A stretch of 48,357 nucleotides of DNA, from the NCBI GenBank assembly GCA_900617975.1, contig UZAE01012281.1:1-48357 (forward strand), given 5' to 3'. Every line of letters begins with the position of its first letter. Positions within the stretch are counted from its first letter, which is position 1. The DNA comes from Rodentolepis nana (lineage: Eukaryota; Platyhelminthes; Cestoda; Cyclophyllidea; Hymenolepididae). The position numbers were made by a program, and so were the translations under genes. A model generated the notes under the pieces. That model did not search any database, was not told the origin of the DNA, and saw nothing but the letters and a program-made list of their open reading frames with translations. Positions 818 through 44,700 of this stretch are shown one piece after another.

Positions 818-3800
818 CTAAAAAAAGGAACAGTAAATAAGTATACACCAAACACCCAGTATATGGCTGTTACAAAACACAAAGCATATAAAAGAGCTAA
901 TACACTTAGAAAATATTTAAATCCTGATTGCACAATCCATACAACCTGTCAATATTCAAAAATTTTCCAAAGCTATGTCGTCATTAATATAAACAACCTC
1001 ACCCATTGAAATAACCAGCTGCTTCAGCTCCTCGGGACTAAATAAAGAAGACTTGTAGCCGAAATAATTGCGTTAATTAGTTGATTCATGAGTTGAGTAT
1101 GACAGAAAGGTATGGTAGACAACAAATTAGTAAAAAGACAACGAGGTCCCAGCAGCAGAAAATTGTAAAAAAAACAATATCAAAGGTAAGAATTCTATGA
1201 AGAGCATTGAGAATGTTCAACTCTGCTCCATTAAGTAGATGAAATTAGACGATAGGAAGGGGAAGGAGAGTTTAAAATATGGAACTTAACGCTGATCATT
1301 CAGAAAATAGTCACTTGGGATAAACTACATAGATTTGTACGCTGTTTCTTTCATTTTAAATTTGATGGCATGTATTGTCATGCATTTTCATAAACATACA
1401 CACCCTTCCCCATCCTAACTAATAGAACCAAGTTGCGATTCCGGGAACATACTGGACGGAAACAAATATCGTAAAGCCTGGCTCAGTGGAAAATTCGCTA
1501 GAAAGATGATTAAACACAGACAAAGTTTTGTACATGTCCAGATTTGGCCGTTTGCCATTGTCTCGTGTTATAACAGCCCAATCTTACTCATAAACCACAG
1601 GTCAAGAATGCCGTAAGATTAAAGAAGACCACTATAAGTCGTATTTGAAATTATATTCAGTACAAACTCCATCTGTTTGTTGTTTTTCATCAAAGTGATT
1701 CAATGAAACAACTTAAAAAAGCCCACGCAGGGTTGGCGTGTTCGAATGACTCATAAGAGCATAGTTTCAGGTCAAGTGCATTTGATAGCAGTGAGAGCGA
1801 ATCAAACAGATGCAAAAAGCACGATTTGTGAACTCCAATCGATGCCGATTTCACCTATTCCAAATCCTCCCATTTCTACGAAGAGAGAAATACAATGAAT
1901 GCTACTGAAGATCAGTTCATCACCTCCCCAATCTCCCAATAAGATGTCAGCAAATTAGGCTTTAAAAACCGATCGTACTAAATTAACTGTTCTCCCTTAT
2001 GAGAAGCAAATATGTAAATAGAACAAAATCAGTTTGCACACTTGAGCTATTATATAAGAAATTGAGTAAATCACTATACCCATTTCTAAAAAGTAATACA
2101 AAAGTCATTTATCCATAGGAAGATCCCACAAATCACGCAAATGCGTACTTACAATCAGAGGGCTTAGGAAAATTGTTTCCAGTAGTCATCGATCTTTTTC
2201 TATAAAGAGCAGTTAGAAGACCAATCTGGGGATGAATAGATACTCATCAATATTATCGGAGCGGTTCAGAATTAACTTAGTGAGGCCTAGCTTATGCTTG
2301 ATAGTTAGACTAAGAAGTTAATTAAGGGCCACATGTTACTTAAGTCCAATAAATATTATCAGTAGGCTTATTCTGCTAAACTGCGTGAAAATCGTTTCAT
2401 TTATAGCAACACATTGGACTGTTAAAAAGAGCGCACTACGTAAATGAACGATAATCAATCAATCATCATCATCATCATCACCAGAGTCCAAATATATCAA
2501 ATATATTTGCAACTATGAATGGGGTGGGGATTCACAACGACCTCTATCGATAATTTCATAGAAATCAGCATTGGAACCACGCCCTTCAGTGCGTGAAAGT
2601 GCAAAAAAAGGCGAATTCAAGCGTCTTTCACAAAAATATAAATAAAACGCATAAGAAGACTCATGAAACGAACTTTAAAAGCGATCTTGATTACGTCAGA
2701 ATAAGCTTAGAGCGTGATAGGACGGAAATACTCCGAGGAATTCCTGGCTTTATGTCCTTCCCAGGCCACAGGAAATTGACTTATTTTTAAAGTTCTTAGA
2801 AGCAACCGCAAGATGGCAGTAATGAAATAATCACGGTGAGGTACAATTAGCATCAATTTGATATTGTGCGCAGACTACTTTTGCCTCCTCTCGTATTACA
2901 CGAAAGCACTATTTTAGGAATAAGCTTTAGTTATCAGCAGCAAACGAGCCACTTAAAAATGGCCCATGACTGGAAACCGCTGAGGCAATAAGCAACAAAA
3001 AACATTATCCAGATGGCAACATGTCAGTGTCAGTAGCCATTCCATATCGATATGCAAGACTATAGAAGCTAGGACCACATAGAAACGTAATTGACCGAGA
3101 GTAGTTAACACCATCTAGGGTGTGCAATAGACTTACCTCCACGTGGTGCACCCTGGGCAACGTATACTCATACGGCAAAAAAGTCTATTAACCGGCAGTT
3201 GACCTCTGACTTCAAACTACCATGGCCGACTGCTTGCCATATTCGACCCCTTTCACAGTACATATCTTACCTTTTTCTCTACCTTTGTGTCTGTCTGCCT
3301 TTTTTACATCTGTGAATCGCTCTTCTGTACCCCTCCTTCTCTCGACTTTCTTCCACTTTGATGAACCTTCCCTCTGTGAAGCCTGAAGTCAGCTAAAGGG
3401 CTAATGATAGCTATCAAAACGCCTGCCATTTGGAATAAATAAATAAATAAATAAATGATAAGGACTTAGCTCCAATATTGCGTTGAAAATTTAATTTTCA
3501 TCACGACTCATTCCAATGCTTTCACAACCACCATTAGATGCATGCAAATGATAGTGAAAATCAACTGATTCTAGGCTGCCGGATTTTCGTGCTATCTACT
3601 TCCTTAACAAAATACTCAAAATCCACAGATAATTTTCAAAGCAAGCCACAAGCCTGATATAAGAGAGACATTCCGGATTATGGGATGAGGGACACTATTG
3701 TGGAACATTCTGCTCTCCTTTCTTTAATAGCGTTAAACTGTAGGTTCCGGAGAAATCAGCACTAGCCATTTCTGCGCACGATCCTAGATGAACAACGCTG

Positions 3801-6800
3801 TGATTCATAAATTTATATAATCCCATGTCTAATTGAAGCACATCAATATTTCAACATTTAGTTTAAGTGCACCAAGGTAGACTTGGAACTAGAATTTCAT
3901 ATTCTTATGAATAAGAAACTCAGAAACAAATATTGAAATTCAAACTTTGAGAAAAAGCGTCCTACTGCCCAATTCGCATATTGGAATTATTAATGAAACT
4001 TGGAGGTTGAAACACTTACCTTCAAGTTCATGTGGGCGAGAATCGGGTGCAAGGCAGGAGGGTGAGAAGGAGGTGAGGCAGGCGTCGGAAGCTGCTGTCA
4101 TAGCACCAGAAGGAAGCAGAGTTGGCACCGCAGCTGCATCCAAGGTCATAGGGAGAGAGGGACCCGTTGAAGTATATACTGTCGACTGCCCCAGGGAAGT
4201 CAAGCCGTTGGTAGCAACGGAAGAAGGAAGATGGTGTGAAGTTAAGGGTGGCTAAAATACAAAAGATAGAATGAGATTACATTATAATTTGCTTCTACTT
4301 AAATGTTTTCTTTTAATCAGGAGGTAAACTGAAGGATTTAATATGTCCTTTTCGATGAACCATCCCTTTCAGCACTTGGATTTTAATAATAATAATCAAA
4401 CACCTTCAAGTAAATGTATGTACTCTAAAGGTAGACTGGAAATTTGCAATTTCCTTTGGAAACGCTTGTATTAAAAATTGGTAATTAATCTCTGAAAGCG
4501 TCGAAATTCAAAAACGCCCATGCACAACAGAGATAGTGTTGGCTATGAACATTGTAAAGCTAGAATTTCCCTTCGCTGCACAGCAGAAAGCATGCAATTA
4601 CAGCGAGACACGAGAACCAGAAGAAATCTTTAAAGCATTTAATAGGGGACTCAGAATAAAACATCATGAACCTGGTCTAACAATCTTGAAATTGCCACAA
4701 TTGATTACGTGATTGTTTATATGTCCACAATGAGTGATCCAGCGGTCGGCTATGTGTAATAAAGATCCATGGCCAAGATACAGCAGAGTGGAAGAGAGAC
4801 CTTGAATGATTGTGGATGACAGTGAGAACTAAAATTCAATCAAGGTGGTAAAAGATTACTGAAGCCGCCAGGTTCGTTCATTTATAGTGATTAAAATAAA
4901 TAGACCAGTAGCTCCATTGCAGTTCCCATAGATTCAAGATGAGCTTAGGTCATGCAAAATCAAATAAAAACACTTGGGAGGATTCGAAAATTAAAAATTT
5001 TAAAGTTGCAGATAGAGCTTGAACTACTAATAACACTACAGAATTTAATAAGATTGAGAATTAATATTTAACTCTATGACTCACAGAGTACAATATGTGA
5101 ACTAGTCTATGATTATTTGCAGTATCAGCACAAATCTCGCTCTTCTGAACACCAGCAAGAGCAGAAAGCACCGGGGAATTGATCAATCCACATGCAACAA
5201 TATATACAAATTTGGAGGAAATTACTCACAAATTCACATTTCTTTTTTTAGACTAAACTAACACCAAAAGATTAGTTCAGGGATAAAATGTCCCGAATGT
5301 ACGTGAAATTCTACCCACTATACAACAATTAAAAATCCTGACAGCTGGGAAATCGAAACGAAAGGGCATATGTCAACTTGAAAAAAAAACTGCACCAGGT
5401 GAATCAATATTGAAGATATGGCATATTCTTACCTCCTCGTGGTGCACTCTGGGCAACGTATACTCATATGGCAAAAAAGTCTACGCACCGGCAGTTGACA
5501 TCAAATTGCCATGACCCGACTGTATGTCATACTCGAACACCACCACAGTACTCACCTTACCATTTTCTCTACCCTTGTGTTTGTCTCTTTTACATCGGTG
5601 AATCACTCTTCTGTCCCCCCCCCCCCCCCCCCACGTCGTCGTATGTGTAATTTGCATAATATTCACACCGAGGAATGGCAAGTTTTACGTGGCTAACTTA
5701 AAAAGTCAACTAAAGAGGGGACTAAGATGTTAATAGGAGAGACGTCGTTTTTCCGACAGTTATAGGAAACATTTGCATATATGCTATTAATGTTGAACTT
5801 GTTCATTGTGGTCGATACTGACTCAAGGAGAATTGAAAGTACTTGGTGAAAATGTACTTAAAAAAAGACTAAAACGGGATTTTAAGACAAGCGAGAGCAT
5901 AGATCAATGCGCTACCTCAATGCCACCGCGTGTTGTGGAGGGAATGGCACCATGGGCATCCAACTGCTGACAAGCATGAGCCATGAGTTGCTGAGCCTGT
6001 TGATGGAAGTGTAGAGTCACCAATTTGGAGTAGAGCTCCTGTGCATAGATGCCTCCATTGCCCTCTGTCGAAAAGCTACACATAAGAGGAGAAGGAAGAG
6101 CTTACATATTAACATGGCAAGACAGCAGGTGGGAGAGATAAAGCGGAATGATCAAAAGGCAAGCAAAAGTTGACACTTGGATGGAAGTTTGAAATAGGGG
6201 AATGAAATATGCAGCGTACCAAGGGAAAAGCAGCTCTCCCTCAATCAGAGGAATATTGTGTCTTGCCATTGCAAGGAGTCGAACAAGGATGATTCGGTCG
6301 TTGCTGCTCAAGCACTTGGAGCCCTCGAAGAGATCCGCAATCCTATCGTAGTCGTGCCACTCATTTTCCAGCACTTGAAGGTATGCCTGAAATGGAAATA
6401 AAGTGGAATTCTAAATAAAGTATATTCAAGTGTAGTACCTTGGGAATTATTATTCGATTCAACCCAACTTGGCTCAATGCCAATTTCATAAAGCTTTTAT
6501 GAGCTAATAAGCATGAACTACAAAATTTGACTTCTCAATGCAACAAAAAATCCGAAATTTGTCGACAGATTTTAAATATCAGTGCAAGAAGTTTTACAAA
6601 CTATCAGTGAGTGGATATTGAGTCACCAGATCTTAGTAAAGTAGGTCTTGAAGCAATAATATTTTAGAGAAAGTTTTAACTATGAAGTTTACACGAAAAC
6701 GTCTAGTGAGGCTGCTGTACATAAGAAAGCACTAAGGTAAGATCATTAGGTCGAATAAGGACACATAAGAAGAGAGATCAGTTCGTTCTGATCACGGCCA

Positions 6801-9800
6801 TAGGAATTAAAGTTCTCGAAAATGAAGTGTGCTCAAAGTTAAAAGGAAATCAGGAGAATCCAATTTCATTTGAGGAAGTTAGAGCCCATCCAGACCTATC
6901 CTTCGTTTTCATTGTCTCACCTTGCAGAGAGAAAATCTGGGTTACAAGTCTTCAAACTATTTCGTAGCTACTCTTCCCCACTTAGACCATAAAATAACTA
7001 TCTACTGGACCAAGGCGTCTGCCCATTGGCAGATCATCTTTAAGGTTGTGTTGGCCGAATCCCAAGTGCCCTCCTGGCACATTTTATAAGCAAAAAAGCT
7101 CGATTTCATAAATTCAACTTTCGAACTTACTCTTGAAGAAGCCTATTTTAAGTTCGAAGACGCTAAATGTACGCAAATAGAAAATAAGAAGAAAATTTAT
7201 CCATTTTTCATGCGTATAAATTAAGAAAGATAGCAATTAATGCTATTAGATGACAAATTGCTGAATACAGGTCCTTTCACACATTAATCACGCAATGGTC
7301 AGGTGACAGAGAGAGGGTTTCCGTTTCTAATGAAAGGTATGACCATACGTATTGCTACCATGGTCAAAAAGGAAGAATCTGAATACATTAGAAGGAAATT
7401 AGTCTTGGATCGTGGCTTTTTGTGGTGAAATAATTTATGCAAGAAAGGTATCACTTGTGAAATATTAATTTGCAATTTCATTTCATGACTTACTGCGTCT
7501 CTCCATTTCTCAGTGATCACTCATTATCAGTGTCACTGATGGCATGTTATTTATGTCATAAAGTCGACACTTCCCAGCAATTCCACCAATTACTTTTAAG
7601 TAAAATTACATACTCTATCCATCGTTAGGTATGGCTGCTTAGTTATTTAGCAACCATAGGACCTCAAACTGACTAAGCAGAAATGTAAAAGTATAGTACT
7701 AGTAGTAGTAACGCACTTCTCGTTTAAGCCTTTCTTCAACGAACCACATTTGCACGTAGACTTGCCACCGGCCTGTTCCAATGTAAGCGTATTGACAGTG
7801 GGTGAAGAGAGCGGGCGTTGTGGGTGCCTGCGTGGGAGGAGCCACATGGACAACCTGTGGGACTCCAACAAAACACCTCTCGCCTCCCCCAGCCCCCTTT
7901 CCATCGTCATCCTCATTCTCATAATCGTCTGTATCCGAATCGTTTTGTCCGTCGTCTGTTGAAAGCTCAGCATCTGACAGGTCATCGTATTCGGCAATGT
8001 GGTCGGCAGTACTGTTGGTGGCTACCACTGCGGTGGCGATATTGCCGATCGCAGAGGCCAAGGAGATGGCTGCACCCTGAGTCAATGTGGAAACTATACT
8101 GGCATGGGGAGTGTGTGGCACATTCTGTGATGGTGAAGCACGGATAATACGGCCCTGAGAGAAGAAAGGAGACATTCAGGTCACTATTGATATGCCTTAA
8201 AACAAAGTCTGTCAATATATTGCATTAACGCTTTCATTACATGTACCACCAGGCCAATAATAGCGGTCCACTTGGCTTACTAATAAGAGACTAAGCAGCG
8301 AGATTATCAATGTCTCAAAGCAAATAATAATACTTTGAGCATTAATATTATTTGCCTTGAAACCTCCATTCAGTTGGCGGGCATAGCGGCAACCAATTGT
8401 GAAGCCTTAGCACGTAGTTCAAAATACTCCATTTGGCTTAAAGATCAATTGGGTTTCGGGAAAAGTTAAAGCAATTGCAGACCACTACTGTGCAAGTTAA
8501 TAAAAGTATTCAAACAAGCAAAAATCAAATATTTATTCGAAGGCCGATTCCAATTATGCAGTCTCAAGGGATTGATAAGTTCATAGCCTTGTCACAGATG
8601 TTGTATTGATAAATAAACATCACGACTAGAATGAGTGAATATGGCAACTTAGGCGTACAGTCGACAGAATTCTTCTAAAAATTCTTAAGAGAAAATGAGT
8701 AGAAAAGAATAATAAAATAAGTAAGACATAAATTGGGATACATTGCGAATTAAAGAAGGAGGGCTAAATAGACTCAACAGAGCTTGTGAGTTCTACGAAG
8801 ACTAGAGAGATAGCGAATAGAGCACTAACATCTTGCCAACACGAAAACGTACTTACTGACTCCTAACCTGTCCTAAAAGTCACATAATAAATTTGTATTA
8901 CGAATTATTCACAGGATGCGAAAAAGTAGACTTTACGCCAGTTACTACAATTCGACTTCCAAGCCACGTCCCAGCTTACCTAACCTAATTCCTCGCGAAA
9001 GCCGAACTTGTGATTTTGGAAATCCTCTCAGGCCGTGTAAGGAGATTGGTCGTAGGCTATAACATTGTACCTACCTTCTAACAAAGGAGTCTACTCCTCC
9101 AAATTGAATATATTGGAAGAAATATATGCAAGAAGATGCGACGTATTGCGACAGACAAGTAAACAATTAACAGTTAAAGTCAAATGAGCAAAGCCGATAC
9201 CGGTTGGCCAAGGTAAATTTGACTGTCTCACCAAAAGAACGAAAAAGAGGCTATAAAAGCCTCAAAGCACAACGTTTTCAAAGTGTCTTACAAAAGTAGC
9301 CAAAATCACCGTCTGTTACAGCCCCAATCCACTTCCCTGCGGCGTGACAAAGGGACGAATTCTGTTACTTAAAACGCAACCTATTAGTGACAATTCGAGT
9401 TATCCAAGTCCTAACTACAGTGAACAGGAAATCTCAAGCAAACATCAAACTTTAGATTAAGGTCGTCTTTAAAAATGCAATGGCAAAAAAATCGCCAGTG
9501 GGAGCAACTTCAGCGTCCACGACTTGAGGAGTGTACTTTGGACTGTATCGCTTAATCGACGCGCTACGCATATTTTTTCATCGGAAACGAATCAAGCAGT
9601 TTGTGCAGCAACGCGACGTTGCACCTCGTTCAGAGGTTTCTTCATCACTTTCTGGATATTTTCGTAACCCTTTACTGAGGAAAATTGACCTCTATAAAGC
9701 GTACGTAGGCCCGTCGTAGTGAAACCCTAAGATGAGTACAGGATTTATGGAAGATGCTAAAGCATTCAAGTAAACGTGGCGAAAAAGCCCGAATTTCGAG

Positions 9801-12800: not shown

Positions 12801-15800
12801 TAACTGGAACCTCATCTTCCTCCTCTTGATCTGCGGCTGATCCACCGAAACGATATCCCAGAAAGGGATAGAAACCACTTCTATTGAGTATAAATAGGGA
12901 TATATTTTAGATACTGATTTATAACATCCATTCCAGAAATCAGGAGACTACTAGAACGATCAGAAAAGTTCTGTGAGCATACTCTTTTCATAAAAGAACA
13001 AACTATACCCTCATTTTTTATTGGCGGCCTGTTTCGAAGCCAGGCGACCGATCATTCGAATTGTACGAAATATATATGCTGTTGATAGTAAGCCAACCAA
13101 TCACCATAGTGTAATTGTGAATCAATGAAACGGGTGTAGAATGGGCCTCGTTCAAGTTGTTCGTAACGAATGTCAAGAATTTTAAAATGGTAGTAACTTA
13201 TCAAATAGAACCTTAGCTATACTAAACGAATGAAAAAAATCCCTATAGGTAACGCTAAAATCACCATAAGAACTTGAAGGTTTTTCGCTTTTTGTTTAAA
13301 TTAGAAGGTGACCGTGTTCTGTCTTGCATGAAGTTCGTGATAAGGATATGAATCCAAAACAAAACCAAAAAAACGGCAGTAAGGCATCTGTTGAATCTTC
13401 TATTATTCACTGTAACAGTATAGTTCCAAAAATATAAATTTTTATCATTCAATCATTAGAATACGGCAATATTTGTCGAAAAATTGTTTAAAACTCATTC
13501 GTTTGATCTGATTTCCATCAACTTCATTAAAACGTATGCAATAGTCAAGTGTTAAAATCTCTAAGAGAAGAACAGCTTCGGATGGAACTGGATTCTAAAG
13601 CCTACTGAATGAGTTCTCCTCCAAATCGTGAATGACGAAACTGCGAGTCGGAACTGGCAGTGTAGATTGTGATTTCTTTCCCCAATTCGAAACAATCGCT
13701 GTCCAGCCACATATATTGGCAATGGCATACACAAATACATGAAGGAATTGATAGCGGTGGTTGTACAATTGTTCGCTTCATAATACCAGCGATTGCATGA
13801 AGATAGGTTGAAAACAGAAGACAAGGTGTATCGAGAGAGTTAGTGCAATTAGGGAGAGAAGTTAATTCAACAGCCACAATGATTAACAATTGCTATCTGT
13901 TCGCCAAAAGTAGTTGTTGTAACGTATCACTCGTTACCCTCTTTCCTCATATTACATTAATCAAGTTTTTACTTTTATGTCAAAGGGGTGTGCAATAGAC
14001 TTACCTCCACGTGGTGCACCCTGGGCAAAGTATACTCATACGCCAAAAAAGTCTATTAACCGGCAGTTGACTTCTGACCTCAAACTACCATAACCCCACT
14101 GTATGTCATTTTCGATCACTTCCACAGCTCCAAACTTCACTTTTCTCTGCCTTTGCGTCTGTCCGACTCTTTTGTAACGGTGAATCACTCTTCTATCCCC
14201 CCCCCCTCTCGAATTCTTCTCACTTTGATGTTCCTCTTTCCCTCTGTGAAGCCCGAAGTCAACTAAAAGGCTAAATGATAACTATCAAAACGCCTACCAT
14301 TTGATACAAATAAACTTTTATGTCAAAAAACTTCCATCAAATCACGACTCATCTCAATTACAAATTTGTATTTTGGAAACTGCCGACATGATCAAAAGCA
14401 CTTTTCAAGCAGTACTTCTCTACTCACCAATTTCAACTTTGAAACGTATGGTATTACATACATAAACGAAACAGTTTAGTTTTTACTTTTGATGAAGTGC
14501 AGAAAAAATGCATTTAAAGTGAAAATTTGTTCTTTATTTTGATAGGTGAGGTCAAAAGCTATTGTCAAATCAGCTTCAAAATGGAAAACGGTTTCACGAA
14601 GCAAGATAGAAAATAATTGCATATGGGAGTCTATACTTCTTTCTGATGGTCTCTATTTCTGCCGACCCAACCGGCCTCCCAATTATAAGGAATTCGAGCA
14701 CAGCATAGTATTTGGCGAGGGATGCGCGATTGACTTATTGCCAAATGGTGCACCCAGGGCAAATGTGTACTCTTACGGAAAAAAGTCTATAAACCAGCAG
14801 TTGGCTTTAAACTAGCATGACCCGACTGTATGCCATATTCCACCACTTCCATAGACTCACCTTGCCTTTTTTCGTCTGCCTCGTTTACATCTGTGAATCA
14901 CCCTTCTCTTTCCTCCCTTCACTCCACTTTCTGTGACTTTGATGTTCCTCTTCCTTTCTGTGAAGCCCTAAGTCAACTGAAGGGCTAATGATAACTATCA
15001 TAAAATATGCCATTTGATATAAATATTTTTGGCATAGATGACTTGCTTGACTTCGAAAATGGGCGAAAATCATTTAGCTGACTTCAGTAGTCACACTTCA
15101 AGTAATACATGCCGAAAGAGACCAGGTGACTAAGAGTAGTGATGGTGCAAATGATTTCCAACTGCATTTGAAGAGGAAAGAAGGGGGGAGGGGTCGATGG
15201 AGATGAAGAGGTTTTTAGAGAGCCTTTTTGATGGAATCAAGTGGAATAAAGACATAAATCACAAAATCTCTAAAGCTGACAAAATATCACAAGTTCTAGC
15301 ACCTGCAGTGTAAATTTTAATCCGATTAAACTTATATGCGTACAAAGAAAAAACAATAAATAAACGCACAATTTACATTACTTATGATCAAATTTGACGC
15401 TGAGTTCTGGCCAAAACAACAAAGAACCACGATTTGGTTGAGAAGTGATTTTTATGAAATTCCCTAGATTTAATTAAGTGACACTTCCTTTTTCCTTTGA
15501 AAAAAATCCTCGCGTGCATGTCATTCATTCAACCTTAATGCAATAAAAAATGTAATATCTAGAAAAATACTAATAAAAGGATCAGCAAATATCATTGAAA
15601 GAGACCTTATTTAGTTCGTTAATGAAAGGCAAAAAAGGCAGAGATATAGAATAAACAAACACGCAATTCAATAACTTGTGAAATTAACACTAGATAATGA
15701 AGCCTAGAATTTGGAGCACTGGAGGGTGATGCAACAGAAGTTGGGGCTTCTGCTCCCTGTGATTAGAAGTGGCATTTGGCCAATTAGGAGAAAATTTTCT

Positions 15801-18952: not shown

Positions 18953-21900
18953 CTGTAAAAACCGCATTTACTAAAAAGATGCAAGTAAAAAGAGCTAAAT
19001 GTTTTATATCGCAGCGTTAGCTTCAAAACAAATTAAGGAGTTAGACTATCTCAAGTCGGGATTGCTACTTGGAGCAAACACGAAGATACTTATCTGAACC
19101 CCATTTATGAGGAATAAGGAGTAAAAAATGACGCAGAGTTGTTGGGACTGCGTAAAATAATTAACTTTTTTCCCGACGTCAAACTCTGGCAGAGGCAACT
19201 CAATAACACCGATCAACAAGCAGTGAACATCGCGTGGAGAATTATTTGCTGCATGACGCTGCTCCCTATTTCTTTTTGGATCCTCCTCTCCTCTTTATCA
19301 TCCGTTGGATTTGATCTTGCTCGATTTCAATTAATTAAACACAAAATCACTATTTCCTGTTTCATTCCAAATTTTTGCTGAAATAACGACTGACACTAAA
19401 ATTGTTTATGTGAATCTATACTATTTACAATACACTAAACATAGTTCGTGTTTAAAATGGCCAAGTTTTAGCTACAAAAAAAGAGCACTTACGTTTTCGC
19501 TCGTGTTAGCTATAATATCACCTTGAAGATCGTAAGACTTTCCCACAAATAGAAAGAAACTGTTAATATATTTTCCAGTAATGCGGAATAACAGTAATAA
19601 TAGAATTTTAAACGCCTTATTAATAAGGTTATGGGTTCGTTTTCCGCGGAAGGAGATACAACAAAGTGGGAGAGCAAAGTAACAAAGATGGGGTGGGAAA
19701 TGGGGACACACCACAAGGAGGTGACGAAGAAGTTGCTGTTAAAAGTGGAGAAAAAGTTAAATCTTTATGGTATTCTCTAACCCCAAAGTTGTCAAACTTA
19801 CGAATGTAATTGTTTCTGCATAGATAATTATAACCAGTTTAAACAAAATAAGGACTTTCAAACAAAATGAACACCCTTCTAACGTCAAGTGAAAGATTAT
19901 TCAAAGTGACGCATTATAGTGCTATGAGGGTCAAAACGACGAAAAATGTACCAAGAAATAAGGCAGAGCGTAAATGGCATTCAGCGTTTAAAAGAAAGAC
20001 ATTGAAGCAATTATATTCTTCCAAAACATTAGTCACCCAACTCTAGAAAGAGTTAGGCAGATTCTGAAGGTAAATAAACAATTAACGTAATGAAAATGGC
20101 GGTTAATTTGGTATGCATAAGAATCTATTCGTTGATTTTTATCAATTCGAGTCATTTACCATACAAATGTAAACTTTCCCAAATAACTAGAGGAAAGTTG
20201 TCATAAAAAGACAGAAAGAGGACAAGAATGAGAAATCCTTGAAATCCGAAGTCACTTCAACTTTTCTTTTATCTACTAAAGGGTCAAGATTCTTGTAAAT
20301 TCAAATGGTTGAAACCGGTCTAAAATAAAGTAGAGAGAGGAAACACACACGAATAAGGAAATGATCCTTTATCCAATAAAAGTAGTAATGGCTTCCCTGA
20401 AATCCAGACAAACTCACTTTTTGTCAATTTGTGGGATTGGTTAAAATGACTTAATTCTGCTTTTTATCTGTTTTCACTACCATATGATCAGTGGAGATAT
20501 AATCTCAGGGGAAACACGGCACCCGTAAGTAATGACTGTCACCTGATACAAGTAGACAGGAAATATGACACAATAGCATGTTTCCAAGGCGAAAATATCA
20601 GTCCTAACGCCCCCCCCCCCTCCCCCCACCCCAAGCATCATTCGCATTTTATGTTGCATAATCAGCATAGAACTGAATTAATTGCACTGCTGCAAAGGTG
20701 AAAAAAAACATCTTAGAAAATATCGTATTATAAGCCAATAAGTGTGATGAGCTGTTAAGTTAGGCGACTCTTGCAGGAGCTTCAAAAAATGAAGCGAAAA
20801 AGAGACACAAAAATCACGTGTTCTGGATTTTCCATACGAGAAATATGACGACAAAAAATCAGACCAAAAACAGTTGACCTGACTAGGTCCCAGCTCAGGT
20901 GAAGTAGGAACGTCCTGATTTTTGACTAACAGTCCAACTATCTCTAAAAGCCTCTTCTTATATGCTTGAATCCCTATAACAAAGATTAAAAGTTGTAAAA
21001 TTTTCCCCTCTTGCCTTGAGGAATTTACATTCAAATACAGACAATTAAATACCGGAATATGCCCCACCCAAATTAGCCCAAACAAAAAATCAAATAAGAG
21101 AAGGCCTAGTTCTTCCCCCCATTGGATAAATTGCTGTGCTCCTCTGGGATGTGAAATTTGTATTTATCCTCGAAATAGGCATAAAGACCTATTTTTCGAT
21201 ATAACTAAACTCAATGAAGTATATTGAATAAATCAACCAAATAGCACTTACTTGACATCATCGAGGTATTTGGGGATGGAGCTAAACATGGTCCGAAAAT
21301 CCTTCCAGACGCGAACTTTAGTGACCTGTTCTGCGGGAATAACGATTTCCACGATAGCTGTGTCATCCTCCAAGTGACCCACAAAGTCATCCATTAACTG
21401 GACAAAAACGCTTAGGTTCTCGGTCTTGCCTGATGCGGTAATAGTGTTGGCAGCACCTTCAGTTGCATTGGCACTGGTATTTGTTGCGGGCTCTTCCTGA
21501 GGTGGCTGAGGTTTCACTGCAAGAGAAAATTGGATGAAAAATTAATCTAACCTGTTGACTAAAGAACAAATATTCTACTAGAGCTTTTCCACAGAAGTAT
21601 ATCAACTGAGAGGATTTTACCATTCAGATGTCTATAAACCGGCAGTTGACTTCTGACTTCAAACTATCATGACCCATCAGTATGTCATATTCCATCATTT
21701 CACAGTACTCACCTCACCTTTTTCGCCAAATTCGTGTCTGTCTGCCTCTAACATCTGTAAAACACTCTTCTGTTCCCCCCTCTCGAATTTTTCCCACTTT
21801 GTTGTTCCTCTCCTCTATGAAGCCCGAAGTCAACTAAAGGGCTAATGATAACTATCATAATGCCTGCAATTTGACATAAATAAATTAATGTTTAAAAAAT

Positions 21901-24284: not shown

Positions 24285-27200
24285 TTAATGGGGCTAAAAT
24301 TTTCAATCAGAGTTATTTAATAATCCGTCCATATGGTTGTATAAATTTTATTTTAAAGTTTCAAAAGTTAAAATAAGCATATGCAAAATTGTTAGACACC
24401 GTTGACGAATTTCAATCGAAGCAAAATAATGAATATAACTTGGTCACAAACGTAAAATCCGAAATTCGTAAAAATTACCACACTGAAAGCTTCTACATGC
24501 CTACTGGCAGTAACCTTACCCTGTTGCTTTTCAAAAGTCCACATGGTTTGTATCCAATTAAAACTACTAGTAACACTAGCGTTCATTTTTGCTAAAATAA
24601 CTTGACTTTTTAGTTATTCTGCCTCATTTCGAAAGGATACATTCATTGATTTTTATTAAAAGCAAAATTTGCCCTATTTTTTTAATTCAAAATAAGTCTA
24701 TGTTTCTATTATTCAGTTAAACATACTCCATCGTTTCCCAATGACTGTGCTCACTAATGACAATTATTGGTGTGTCATGCTTTCATGAATTTGATTTCGG
24801 TCTTATATGTGGTTTAATAAGATTATCTATTAATAAACTTCGGATTCAACTAATTGATCGTACGAAAGTTGGAATCTTTTAGCTATTTAGGAGACCTTCC
24901 ATATAAAGGCTACTGCAACGAGATTGCTTCGATCTCTCATAATGACTCTTATCTATTTTAATATGAAATATAAAGCAAATAAATAGAGTGAGGATAATGA
25001 CAAAATAATGTCTCCATCAAAGCAATAGTGAGCATATTTCAAGTCATGTATATTTAGCAATTCCTTTCAAAAGCCAGCCATTGTTAATTATTATACGACG
25101 TTTATAATATTAAAACTCGAAAGCTTGGGCAAAAAATCATCCAACCTGGTCTACAGATTATTAATGTTTCTAAATTAACAATTGCATCTTTAGAATTGTT
25201 CTCATACTATTTGATTATTTTACAATAATATTCCTCATATTAAAAGAATGAATTAGACACTGGATTAAACCAAATTTCTCTGTTATGTCATATTTATGTC
25301 CAAGAAAGATAGACAATCCATTATAGAAATTTTAAATAAATGATAACAAAATAAAGGAATGTTTGTTCATTATTGTCTTTCATGTTAGATCCAAGTTGTA
25401 TCTCTTCACGGGTTTCCTGAGAAGTGGCAAATGAAGGTTTATTTACTGTTGAGTTTGATTTCCAGAATTGATATTAATGAAGATCTGTTTCTAGTATTGA
25501 TGAATTAATTGGTTACCGTTGTGCGGAAATTGTTCGATGTCGAACTCTAGTTAGGCCACTGGAATCTACTTTATTTAGCACCCATGCGCTTATGTGTCTC
25601 TGGAACGATGATCAAGCACGTAAACTACTGTGATGTTAAGAAGTGTCTTTAGAGGTAAGGGGATATAGATGAACTAGAAATGGTTAAGAAATATGGTAAA
25701 GTGAAAGGATAGGATTTTGTGCAATACTGGGTTCATTTAAAATGAATTCATCGTCATTTAATACTTAAAAGAGACACGTCGGTAGTTACTCACAGCTTCC
25801 ACTCCAGAGGTGGCTTCTAAAATATCGTCTTCGAATTGATAATGTATCGGTGGTCAATTGGTTATTACTGATTTGGATAAAGACATAATTGGGTGATATT
25901 ATGACTGCCGAAAATTTGTATAATCAGGGTAGGAGATGATTGAGTGATGTTATCAAATACAGTTATCTTGAATAGTCCACAAGGTAAAAATATATCAAGC
26001 AGCATATTAGTTGGGGAAAATTTCAATGGAATTGAGGTCATTACTATGACAAGATAGTTATCATTAGCCCTTTAGTTGAATTCGGTCTTCACAGAGTGAG
26101 AGACATCAAGTTCACAAAAGGTAGAGGTTGAAGGGACAGACGAGTGATTCACAGATTTGAAAGAGACAGACAGACAGGCGGACACAAAGGCCAAGAGTAG
26201 GGTACGGTGAGTATTGTGGATATAGTCGAATTTTGCATACAAATGGGTCATGGTAGTTTGAAGTCAACTACCGGTTTAAATATTTCTTTCGTTCCATGCT
26301 CAAACCATTTAACATATATATTGCAGTAAGTTTTAATATTACAATCTGAATAATAAAACCGATTTCCCATTTTAACTTAATGTGCAATAATTTACCAGCT
26401 ACGTTGGGAAAAATCAATGAGCATCTTTATCCCTTATATTATTTCTGATATTTTCAACCATCTTTCACTTGCTGAAGTGAAATCAAGCAATAAGCGTCTT
26501 ATTAATATTTTGAGGATTCAAATTCTGAAGAACCCGATCCTAGAATATCAATTTAAAATAAGAAGAAAAAAGGACATTAAATCACTCAAGTTACGCGTTA
26601 TACTAAAAATTAAAGTTGGCTTTGGTATTGGTTATGCACAAAATATTTATGTAATTGAAATTTCAAAAAATGACATTAGCACTAACGAGATTAGCTTTAA
26701 AAAAGGATTAGTTTAAACTTGAACAGAAAAGGAAATTCAAATAAAAATCGCAGTACGCTTAACATCAGATCTTGGTTTCAAAGCATAACTTGATTAAAAG
26801 GAATTTTATAATGTTACTTAATTGAAATACCTTTATGACACAAATAATCATTGCTAAAAGTTATTTTTGTGGTGAGCGAATTCTTCTAACTACTCGTTTT
26901 TATATTGCTGAGTGCTTTAACGATGAACAAATTAATATTTTCATTAATGTACGCTAGTGTTGCAAAAGTTGATTTAAAAATTATATATAATAAAGCGGAC
27001 AAAATTTGAGTCTTTTTCGCCTTCAGTTAGTTCTGAATAAATAGTTATTGTAAAATAAATTAAATTCGGTTCCTGAAATTAAAGCCTCCAATCGAAGAAA
27101 TTTTTATTGGTAACTAAAGTAGGCTATAAAAAATAATAATTTAAACTACAGAAGCGCAAAATATAACTGGTTGAGATTTGTTTTAATTAGCAAAATGTAA

Positions 27201-41700: not shown

Positions 41701-44700
41701 TTTTGACTAACGTTTTGTGAGAATTTTAGAAATTAAGAATGACTAGACTAAAAATGCAAGAATAAGTTTAAAAGATGGATCGAGAAGTAAAACAATGGTA
41801 CAAATTTTAGAGAAGGCAACCATTTGGACTTGTAGCTAGCTAGGGCATCCCATTGGTCCATGTACTCCCTTATCGGTCTGCATGGTGTACAGAGCTTCCG
41901 TGCGGATTATTGAATCTGCCAGCTTAATGCACTGGGTAAAATGCCTTTATTAGAACGTTCAAATCATGCACATTGCGTTTTTGACCTTTGAAAGCTAAAG
42001 TAAATTGTAATCTTAAAACTGAGCTTTCTATTTATGCAGTCAACCACTTGCTCAGTCACTTAAGGCCTAATCGATTTTTAATCTGTAGCAGTGAACGGTT
42101 ATTTTTACAACGGAGATAACTGGAAATATGCTTTGGCCTTGGAAATAGTAATTGAAAAATGTAGGTGTTCTACTATGCAAAGAAAGTAGATAATTCTGTC
42201 AAGAACTGAGCAATGATTAAAAACAGAAGGAAGGAAGCAGAAAATTGGTCGAGTCCATAAACAAAATACGATGCTAGTCAAACTTGGGTAATATATTGCT
42301 GTTTTTAAAGACTTATCAAAGCCGCTTTTTGACAGCTAAGGAAAGCAAATATTTAAAGGAAAAAGTTAATCATTTTGGCGGTAATTTATAGTTCTGCGAA
42401 ACATTTTGGGTTGGACTATGTTATAGTAGTTCAAATAAAAAGTTATTTGGGTGTAATTTACACCGCCTTTTTAACTCTCCAATGTTCCGTTTTTTCATAT
42501 ATATTTTTAATTAGCCTCCCTTCATTATGGGCTTTTTGAAAACGATTAGGCTGCGAATCTAGTGATTTACGCGCTGAAATTTAATAAATATTATAAATTT
42601 TAATGCGCATTTCGCTCAGTGCTATTTCAGTTGTCATGTCAAAAAATATATTAATTGGGGTAATGGGCACTGAATCATGTTTTGGGAAGATTTAATTTTA
42701 TTTAGACTTTTCCCCTGATTCTTCTGTGATTCGGTATATAAAAAGCCTTGTTTTGCAATCCGAATCGGTCATCATTTGGAATGTTGAAGTCCGACGGTGG
42801 AAGCTAGCATAGGGCGTAAAACGCTCAATATTATAACTACTAAAGAGGGGACAAAAGAGAAATTTGTAGTTTTAAGCTTTTATGTTATGACAATTTAAGG
42901 CGTCATCTATTTCATTTCCCACATTTAGGTAAGCCACTTAAGTATTCCAACCATTCATACAACTTGAGTGAATGCGACGTGTCTCACAAAGTACTTTCTG
43001 ATTGTAATATTGCTCAATTGACTGCAAGTCTCCCATAATCGCTAACTCTCCTTATGACGCTACAAATCACACTGGCTAGTTTTAATCCTGAAAAGCGCTG
43101 GTTTATGGCAAGATACAAGGTAATCCTAAATTACTACCAACCAGCACAATAAAGGGGAAAACTCGGATGATACTAGCTTAACGTAGTAAAACACAAACGC
43201 CTTTCCGGCCGAAAGGCGAATTACAGATCATTGTCTTGAAAATTGGATTAAATGGAAGTTTATTGGTCGTAGTAAGGATAGTGAGTGCTTACCACTGTTC
43301 TATAAATTTATCTATTTCAAATCGCAAGCGTTTTGATAGTTATCATTAGCCCTTTAGTTGACTTCGTGGCTTCACGGAGAGGAGGATGAACATCAAAGTG
43401 ACAAAAAGTCGAGAGGGGGAGGGGAACAGAAGAGTGTTTTAAAGATGACACAAAAGCAGAGGAAATGTAAGATGGGCACTGTGAAAGGGGTCGAATATGC
43501 AAATAGTTGGGTCATAGTAGTTTTAAGTCAGAAATCAACTGCCGATTAATAGACTTTTTGCCGTAAAAATATACGTTGCCCAGGGTGAACCACGTGGTGG
43601 TAAGTCTATTGCGCACCCTTGTTTAATAGATAAATTTAATTAAAATTGTTATAATCTTATAAACCTCGAAATTCGTTCAAAATTTTGTTACGCATTTATC
43701 AATGTCGGGTAATAAATTACGCTTTTATTCTTTAATTATTCGAATTAAAAATTTGTATTTTAAACGATATTTTGATTTTATTTCTACTGAATAGAATGCT
43801 TACTGGAATGTGAGATTGTAAACATTAAACTCGAAGCAGAAATTGAAATGGTGCTTCTGTGGGTAGTCTTCAAAGAGGTGTCTTAGGGTTGTACTTGAGC
43901 ATGTTATTTCGTTTGTCAACTTTAAAATGTGTTTGTGTTTGATGCTATTTCCGTCGACTAAATTTTATTTTAATATAAGTTTTTAAGTAGCTGAATTGAA
44001 GTTTCTGATATTCTAGATAGGTCATGGGTACCAGCTAGATATCTATCAGTGTTAATTTTCAGCTTTTTAAAATTCCATTATTTGCATCTTAACTTTGATG
44101 TCTAATCTTTGATGAAACGTGGATACGAGCTATTATTAATTTGTTATCTGTCGCTCAATGGCTTTTTTTACAACTTGAATTCTGTTGCGTTCATTCTGTG
44201 TTCATTCAGTTGGAACTATGAAATTATATATGCTTTGAATTCTAGCTAGTGTGTAAACTTCTCATTGTTTTCAGTCTAATTAATGAATTTATCTCACCTG
44301 AATTTAAATACTTCTTTTGGCCGAGAATTAATCTGCGAATCGAGAAAAAACACCTCCTCTTAACATTTGTGGACACATTGTTGGGTCCCACATGACATAT
44401 CTTCGAGGGAGGGAGGACTCGCGTTCTTAACTTCGGCCTCCTTTTTTGATATTTGGTTCATTTTTTTCGCGTCAAAGGAATCATATTCTCGAACGCTTCG
44501 TTTTTTTCGAAAAATGAACTTTGAATTAAGTTGATTTTGATACTTTGTTTCAAATACATTAAGTGGTCCAGTCAAGTGTGATGGCTGTGTATTAAGGTAC
44601 ATAGTAAATATCGATCGCTATTTTCAGGAATTTCAATTACTATCTATCTCTTGCTTGTATCTATATAACTCGCATGCTCTTTAAATAGTGTACATCAGCT

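Follow-up and report, generated by a model that had tools for sequence, protein, structure and literature searches.

In R2 and further non-LTR elements, HDV-like ribozymes were reportedly described by Webb in 2009 and by Ruminski in 2011. Located at the 5' ends of these elements, they are thought to release the element RNA from a co-transcript, according to the account in PMC3774820. As described in PMC3414825, R2Dwi_SIDE, an element of 529 bp, has an R2 ribozyme with cleavage activity in vitro, followed by a 197-bp centre whose origin is not known and by the 3' end of R2. The trypanosomatid NARTc, RIME and SIDERs are likewise described as carrying the ribozyme of the L1Tc/ingi LINEs (PMC4035085). 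An initial annotation of the DNA studied here knew of no HDV-like ribozyme in a short non-autonomous element of this kind; the 5' ribozymes of the R2 SIDEs (PMC3414825) and of NARTc, RIME and the SIDERs (PMC4035085) contradict that statement. Retrozymes are retroposons with hammerhead ribozymes and are expressed as small RNA circles, as summarized in PMC7761336. Regarding tapeworm repeats, the genome report for Hymenolepis microstoma puts LINEs at 1% and unclassified repeats at 14.8% (PMC7653826).

Here we analyzed the whole 48,357-nt contig UZAE01012281.1 of the tapeworm Rodentolepis nana (hereafter, the window), one of the 4701 contigs in the 107 Mb of genome searched. The window holds copies of a SINE of ~333 nt with an (AAAT)n tail, which is dispersed in the R. 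nana genome. The agreement of fold, covariance-model score and insertion boundaries supports the assignment of its 5' end as an HDV-like ribozyme with predicted catalysis, as the initial annotation had read it. Our analysis also found a probable partner LINE with the same ribozyme, which that annotation did not contain.

Ribozyme fold and insertion boundary

The fold was analyzed in copy A, a full-length element with an (AAAT)n tail at 3117–3456 of the forward strand, where a clear target-site duplication was not found. Its predicted ribozyme covers 3117–3189 (+). P1 pairs 3117–3123 with 3148–3154 (7/7), and cleavage is predicted just ahead of 3117; P2 pairs 3126–3134 with 3181–3189 (9/9). P3 and its loop occupy 3135–3147, with 3135–3137 paired to 3145–3147 (3/3) and L3 (UCCACGU) at 3138–3144, from which the CC at 3139–3140 pairs with the GG at 3155–3156 to give P1.1 (2/2). 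The P4 hairpin lies at 3161–3174, 3161–3165 pairing with 3170–3174 (5/5). Thus, all 26 of the 26 pairs of the nested double pseudoknot of P1, P1.1, P2, P3 and P4 form in this copy. The nine-pair P2, three-pair P3 with its loop and two-pair P1.1 were already given in the initial annotation; its P4 is also present, with five pairs possible instead of the four proposed, and its six-pair P1 starting at 3118 is replaced by a seven-pair helix whose first base is 3117. The putative catalytic C, which it had numbered C59 within GGCAAA, is window position 3176 by alignment to RF02682 and RF00094.

When the whole window was scanned with cmscan, RF02682 matched 3119–3188 (+) at 44.6 bits (E 4.1e-5), barely above its curated cut-off of 44, and RF00094 scored copy A at 36.8 bits, below its cut-off of 50. 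A covariance model built from 21 SINE and LINE sequences of the family, part of them picked by Rfam score, gave copy A 109.9 bits and detects five copies in the window. The remaining window copies are under the RF02682 cut-off: 32.9 bits at 13985–14056, 27.9 at 5416–5484 and 26.5 at 43617–43549 (−). The initial annotation had pointed to 3118–3189 and 43548–43618 for such a search; the first of these passes (44.6 against 44) and the second does not (26.5). A descriptor of the pairings only was unspecific, with 4 matches in the window versus a mean of 1.87 in 60 dinucleotide shuffles. Requiring CC/GG in P1.1 left only 3117 in the window and 6 matches across 500 shuffles, and adding the catalytic GC..AA left 0 matches in 500 shuffles. 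The descriptor was written once the sequence had been seen, which leaves the Rfam score as the independent test. We reject a chance fold on the RF02682 score together with the 0/500 shuffles of the strict descriptor.

The family begins with GGGG, its first base corresponding to 3117, which is A in copy A and still pairs. There are 105 copies with the 5' region, and in the 82 of these that align from the query's first base (SINE and some LINE copies), the base ahead of GGG is mostly G (68 copies), otherwise A (7), T (4) or C (3). This G1 adds the seventh pair of P1 as a G·U; the P1 of HDV likewise opens with a G·U. Candidate target-site duplications (score 8 or more), ending at or ≤4 bases from the start, were present in 44/55 full copies. 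This is a raw count in which many loci (L001–L038) had been fetched by ribozyme sequence or score, which may favor intact 5' ends. Between the candidate duplication and GGG there is one G in 23 copies, nothing in 7 and another stretch of 1–4 bases in 14. From these gaps and the G before GGG, the insertion boundary and the predicted cleavage site agree well. The SINE duplications are 8–20 bp long, and both flanks and duplications vary between copies. The candidate duplications and the tail are consistent with insertion by target-primed reverse transcription. We also considered whether the G before GGG was added without a template, from the cap, and set this reading aside since the G would complete P1 as a G·U pair.

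The SINE family and its probable partner LINE

Copy A can be divided into three parts. The first, 3117–3215 (+), contains the ribozyme and ~23 nt more (its end is approximate) and is common to the LINE 5' end, SINE positions 1–96/98 matching LINE 5' ends at 83–85%. The second, 3216–3369 (+), is a pyrimidine-rich body with T runs, found in the LINE only as nested SINE copies, and the third, 3370–3454 (+), is common to the LINE 3' end by sequence match and includes the AAAT tail. Besides this element, the window has seven more copies or pieces, one of them in two parts and one just 34 nt long. Copy B (13985–14314, +) is full length with a 14-bp duplication; its ribozyme (13985–14057, +) has lost one P4 pair and has GCC in place of GGC ahead of the A run. 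Copy C (43306–43619, −) is also full length, and its ribozyme at 43619–43548 forms 6/7 P1 pairs. The others are a partial copy with decayed P1 (5413–5619, +), a diverged copy (14719–15025, +), a copy without the ribozyme whose match starts at element position 66 (21630–21889, +), a two-piece fragment also without it (26053–26266, −) and the 34-nt piece of the common 3' end, from either SINE or LINE (5–38, +). Four reading frames of the window had no Pfam match. Elsewhere in the window, an AT-rich hairpin at 8310–8365 (−) weakly matches mir-2059 (26.5 bits against a cut-off of 90), probably by chance.

The first 72 nt of the SINE have at least 40 scored genome matches at 99–100% (from 904 first-look candidates). 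SINE matches occurred in 4/6 arbitrary 3-kb genome stretches, one match being only 46 nt, and six SINE copies were counted in these 18 kb. Extrapolation from the 18 kb and the window gives a copy number on the order of 10^4, which is a rough estimate and not a count. Mean agreement with the majority sequence, taken over 35 full copies whose loci had not been fetched by Rfam score, is 0.94 for the ribozyme, 0.87 for the middle part and 0.93 for the 3' end; this third value is inflated because many loci were fetched via the 3' end. By blastn, the family was absent from phage records, and exact 30- and 24-nt family patterns had no match in viral contigs or in bacterial and archaeal genomes. At L047:2372–3051, two SINE copies are inverted relative to each other and face each other with their tails, which are TA-rich in place of AAAT. 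Tandem arrays made from SINE 5' pieces, with units of ~39–41 nt, were seen at L010:2652–2941, L054:1080–1248 and L056:3–1222; ribozyme-core units number ~7 in L010 and ~4 in L054, and L056 has ~30 units of the stretch just 3' of the ribozyme. These arrays perhaps arose from reverse-transcriptase slippage.

The probable partner of the SINE is a LINE with endonuclease, reverse transcriptase (RT) and RNase H. SINE positions 1 to ~98 and ~253–337 match this LINE, and the SINE middle matches LINE loci only at nested SINE copies. The SINE 3' end was found downstream of the RT in 5/5 RT-bearing stretches. An alignment of 6 SINE and 8 LINE 3' ends shows them to be alike; a 3' hairpin common to both has 7 pairs, none changed on both sides. 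On the 5' side, an HDV-like match stands immediately ahead of the endonuclease start in L073. A search with the L073 5' UTR gave 573 candidates, of which 40 were scored and the first 12, including the query's own copy, were fetched; the family ribozyme model matches the LINE 5' end in all 12. RF02682 scores at LINE 5' ends are 26–40 bits, below cut-off. The sequence 5' of GGGG varies from one LINE copy to another. The distance from G1 to the start codon of the endonuclease frame, measured in six LINE copies, is 103–104 nt; soon after this codon, one of these copies has a stop and another a frameshift. A partly duplicated ribozyme is present at another LINE 5' end (L084:1701–1863, −).

PF14529 was found in four LINE loci (L075, L078, L085 and L086), RVT_1 in pieces taken from L070 and L072, and RNase_H in a piece from L072. 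LINE reading frames are often interrupted by stops, and a single uninterrupted full frame was not seen at the loci examined. Among 76 protein matches to the LINE RT, an R. nana protein (58% over 91% of the query) is one of the best named, H. microstoma proteins match at 69% and 71% over 52%, and the named matches are mostly from tapeworms, with two spider proteins ranking lower; these relatives fit a hymenolepidid tapeworm as the host. As judged by domain content, the LINE has the features of the L1Tc/ingi clade, combining a 5' ribozyme with domains for endonuclease, RT and RNase H. We rejected an R2-type site-specific element, as flanks and duplications differ between copies instead of marking one 28S rDNA site, and as the endonuclease is PF14529.

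Conservation of the ribozyme and proposed life cycle

Genome-wide, 37 of 61 scored RF02682 matches pass the cut-off (from 25,212 first-look candidates), versus 0 of 14 control genomes; the 61 are a lower bound because the window copy is missing among them. All 30 of the 30 RF02682 loci fetched sit at SINE copies. Conservation was examined with the family model at loci that had been fetched by neither Rfam score nor ribozyme sequence (the window, L040–L068 without L054, and L074–L086). Of its matches, we kept the 49 whose E value was 1e-13 or lower and dropped weaker ones, there being 74 at 0.001 with L054 included. The putative catalytic C is kept in 32/37 SINE and 11/12 LINE rows, and by a rule-of-thumb criterion the ribozyme core is intact in 22/37 SINE and 7/12 LINE rows. 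In the 49 matches, 93.3% of 1240 cells are paired, compared with 34–46% for slid partners and 93.2% for within-column shuffles. One pair is altered on both sides in these matches, and 340/500 shuffles reach as much. These statistics fit young copies and give no sign of selection on the fold. Helix differences between SINE and LINE mostly retain pairing, as U·G or C-G at columns 7–32, G·U, A-U or G-C at columns 10–74, and U-A or U·G at columns 49–54, with 4, 6 and 9 unpaired rows, respectively.

Based on these findings, we think it likely that the SINE is a SIDE-type non-autonomous retroposon, composed of the LINE 5' ~98 nt with the ribozyme, an unrelated pyrimidine-rich body and the LINE 3' ~85 nt, which is released by its ribozyme and moved by the LINE. 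What is seen in the DNA is an HDV-like fold, both ends common to the LINE, candidate duplications in most full copies and a start at G1, the predicted cleavage site. In the proposed cycle, SINE copies would be transcribed inside host RNAs that read through them, and the ribozyme would cut just ahead of G1, freeing an RNA with an exact 5' end. The LINE protein may then recognize the common 3' end and reverse-transcribe the SINE RNA in trans at a nicked target; we infer this mobilization because the 3' end is common to SINE and LINE. Every new copy would bring its own ribozyme, so that no promoter would be needed to restore its 5' end. Against this proposal stand the missing compensatory signal, the LINE ribozymes under the cut-off and the broken cores. 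A stronger version, in which a promoterless SINE of order 10^4 copies lives wholly on read-through and ribozyme release, while its sense copies in genes cut host pre-mRNAs genome-wide and so shape which insertions survive, is speculative and in our view rather unlikely.

The transcription route could also be that of an ordinary Pol III SINE whose RNA-gene head resembles an HDV ribozyme by accident. Size, abundance and the AAAT tail are SINE-like, but the 5' end is common to the LINE, there is no tRNA in the window, and no further Rfam family reaches gathering score in 2900–3600. A and B boxes are missing from the SINE majority sequence, with a B-box match in 2/35 full copies, and internal TTTT runs occur in 35/35 full copies (TTTTT in 31/35). 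We therefore rejected a tRNA, 5S or 7SL head, and give this reading next to no credence. Without Pol III boxes and with internal TTTT, read-through transcription followed by ribozyme release is the likeliest route. An improbable, though more serious, competitor is that the 5' ~75 nt chiefly serve as an internal promoter starting at G1, as the Pr77 DNA does in L1Tc, with the fold secondary or a protein signal. Pr77 combines both roles in trypanosomatids as described in PMC4035085, a Pol II promoter may lie within the ribozyme in the same manner, and a start site at G1 would account for the constant 5' end too. However, a promoter alone leaves unexplained the complete HDV fold with its catalytic C and P1.1, as well as the SINE/LINE helix differences that mostly preserve pairing.

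The family might alternatively be dead, its ribozyme a decayed relic that is nonfunctional in most copies. The core is indeed broken in 15/37 SINE and 5/12 LINE rows, many full SINE copies are only 77–90% like copy A, and the LINE frames contain stops. On the other hand, 12/40 scored matches to the first 72 nt, the window copy counted, are identical, L042 and L054 match the window copy at 98% over the whole element, and the SINE majority sequence retains the full ribozyme core. We regard such a relic as very improbable, and SIDE-type retroposition with ribozyme release as the preferred explanation.

Comparison with known systems

The arrangement is known from fruit flies and trypanosomes, and the tapeworm family is a well-supported new animal example, in high copy and dispersed. 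In the literature searched, no paper joins Hymenolepis and ribozyme, and among the titles listed none names an animal SINE with an HDV-like ribozyme besides the R2 SIDEs; since this search did not extend to the repeat databases or to most subscription literature, we do not claim the family as undescribed. An animal SINE would here generate its 5' end by a ribozyme instead of relying on a Pol III promoter, in a genome that also has a LINE with the same ribozyme. This supports the idea from the R2 SIDEs that a 5' ribozyme and a LINE 3' end suffice for a successful LINE parasite, and extends it to much higher copy number and beyond rDNA. How thousands of self-cleaving RNAs in host transcripts would affect a compact genome also becomes a testable question.

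Like the Drosophila R2 SIDE and R2/R1 SIDE described in PMC3414825, the tapeworm SINE has a 5' HDV-like ribozyme, a LINE 3' end and a probable autonomous partner, and its centre, like that of R2Dwi_SIDE, is unrelated to the LINE. The R2 SIDEs of that paper are located in 28S rDNA and exploit R2 or R1, whereas the tapeworm SINE is dispersed with 8–20 bp duplications and far more numerous, with a partner LINE that combines endonuclease, RT and RNase H. R2-type carriers of the ribozyme are autonomous in the account of PMC3774820, whereas the main carrier by number here appears to be the SINE. As with the retrozymes of PMC7761336, for which the animal members are proposed to be a SINE kind, we have a short non-autonomous retroposon with a predicted self-cleaving RNA, although HDV-like ribozymes are another class. 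A further parallel comes from the trypanosomatid elements of PMC4035085: in L1Tc/NARTc, ingi/RIME and the SIDERs, LINE and short element share a ~75-nt 5' HDV-like ribozyme, the LINE having AP endonuclease, RT and RNase H as in the tapeworm. The tandem arrays of SINE 5' pieces seen here may be compared with Leishmania SIDER2, for which the same paper gives two tandem ribozyme signatures. NARTc and RIME are described there as truncated versions of their own LINEs, whereas the middle of the tapeworm SINE is foreign, and Pr77 has promoter activity besides its ribozyme. The host, too, differs: L1Tc/NARTc and ingi/RIME belong to trypanosomatids, and the family described here belongs to an animal.
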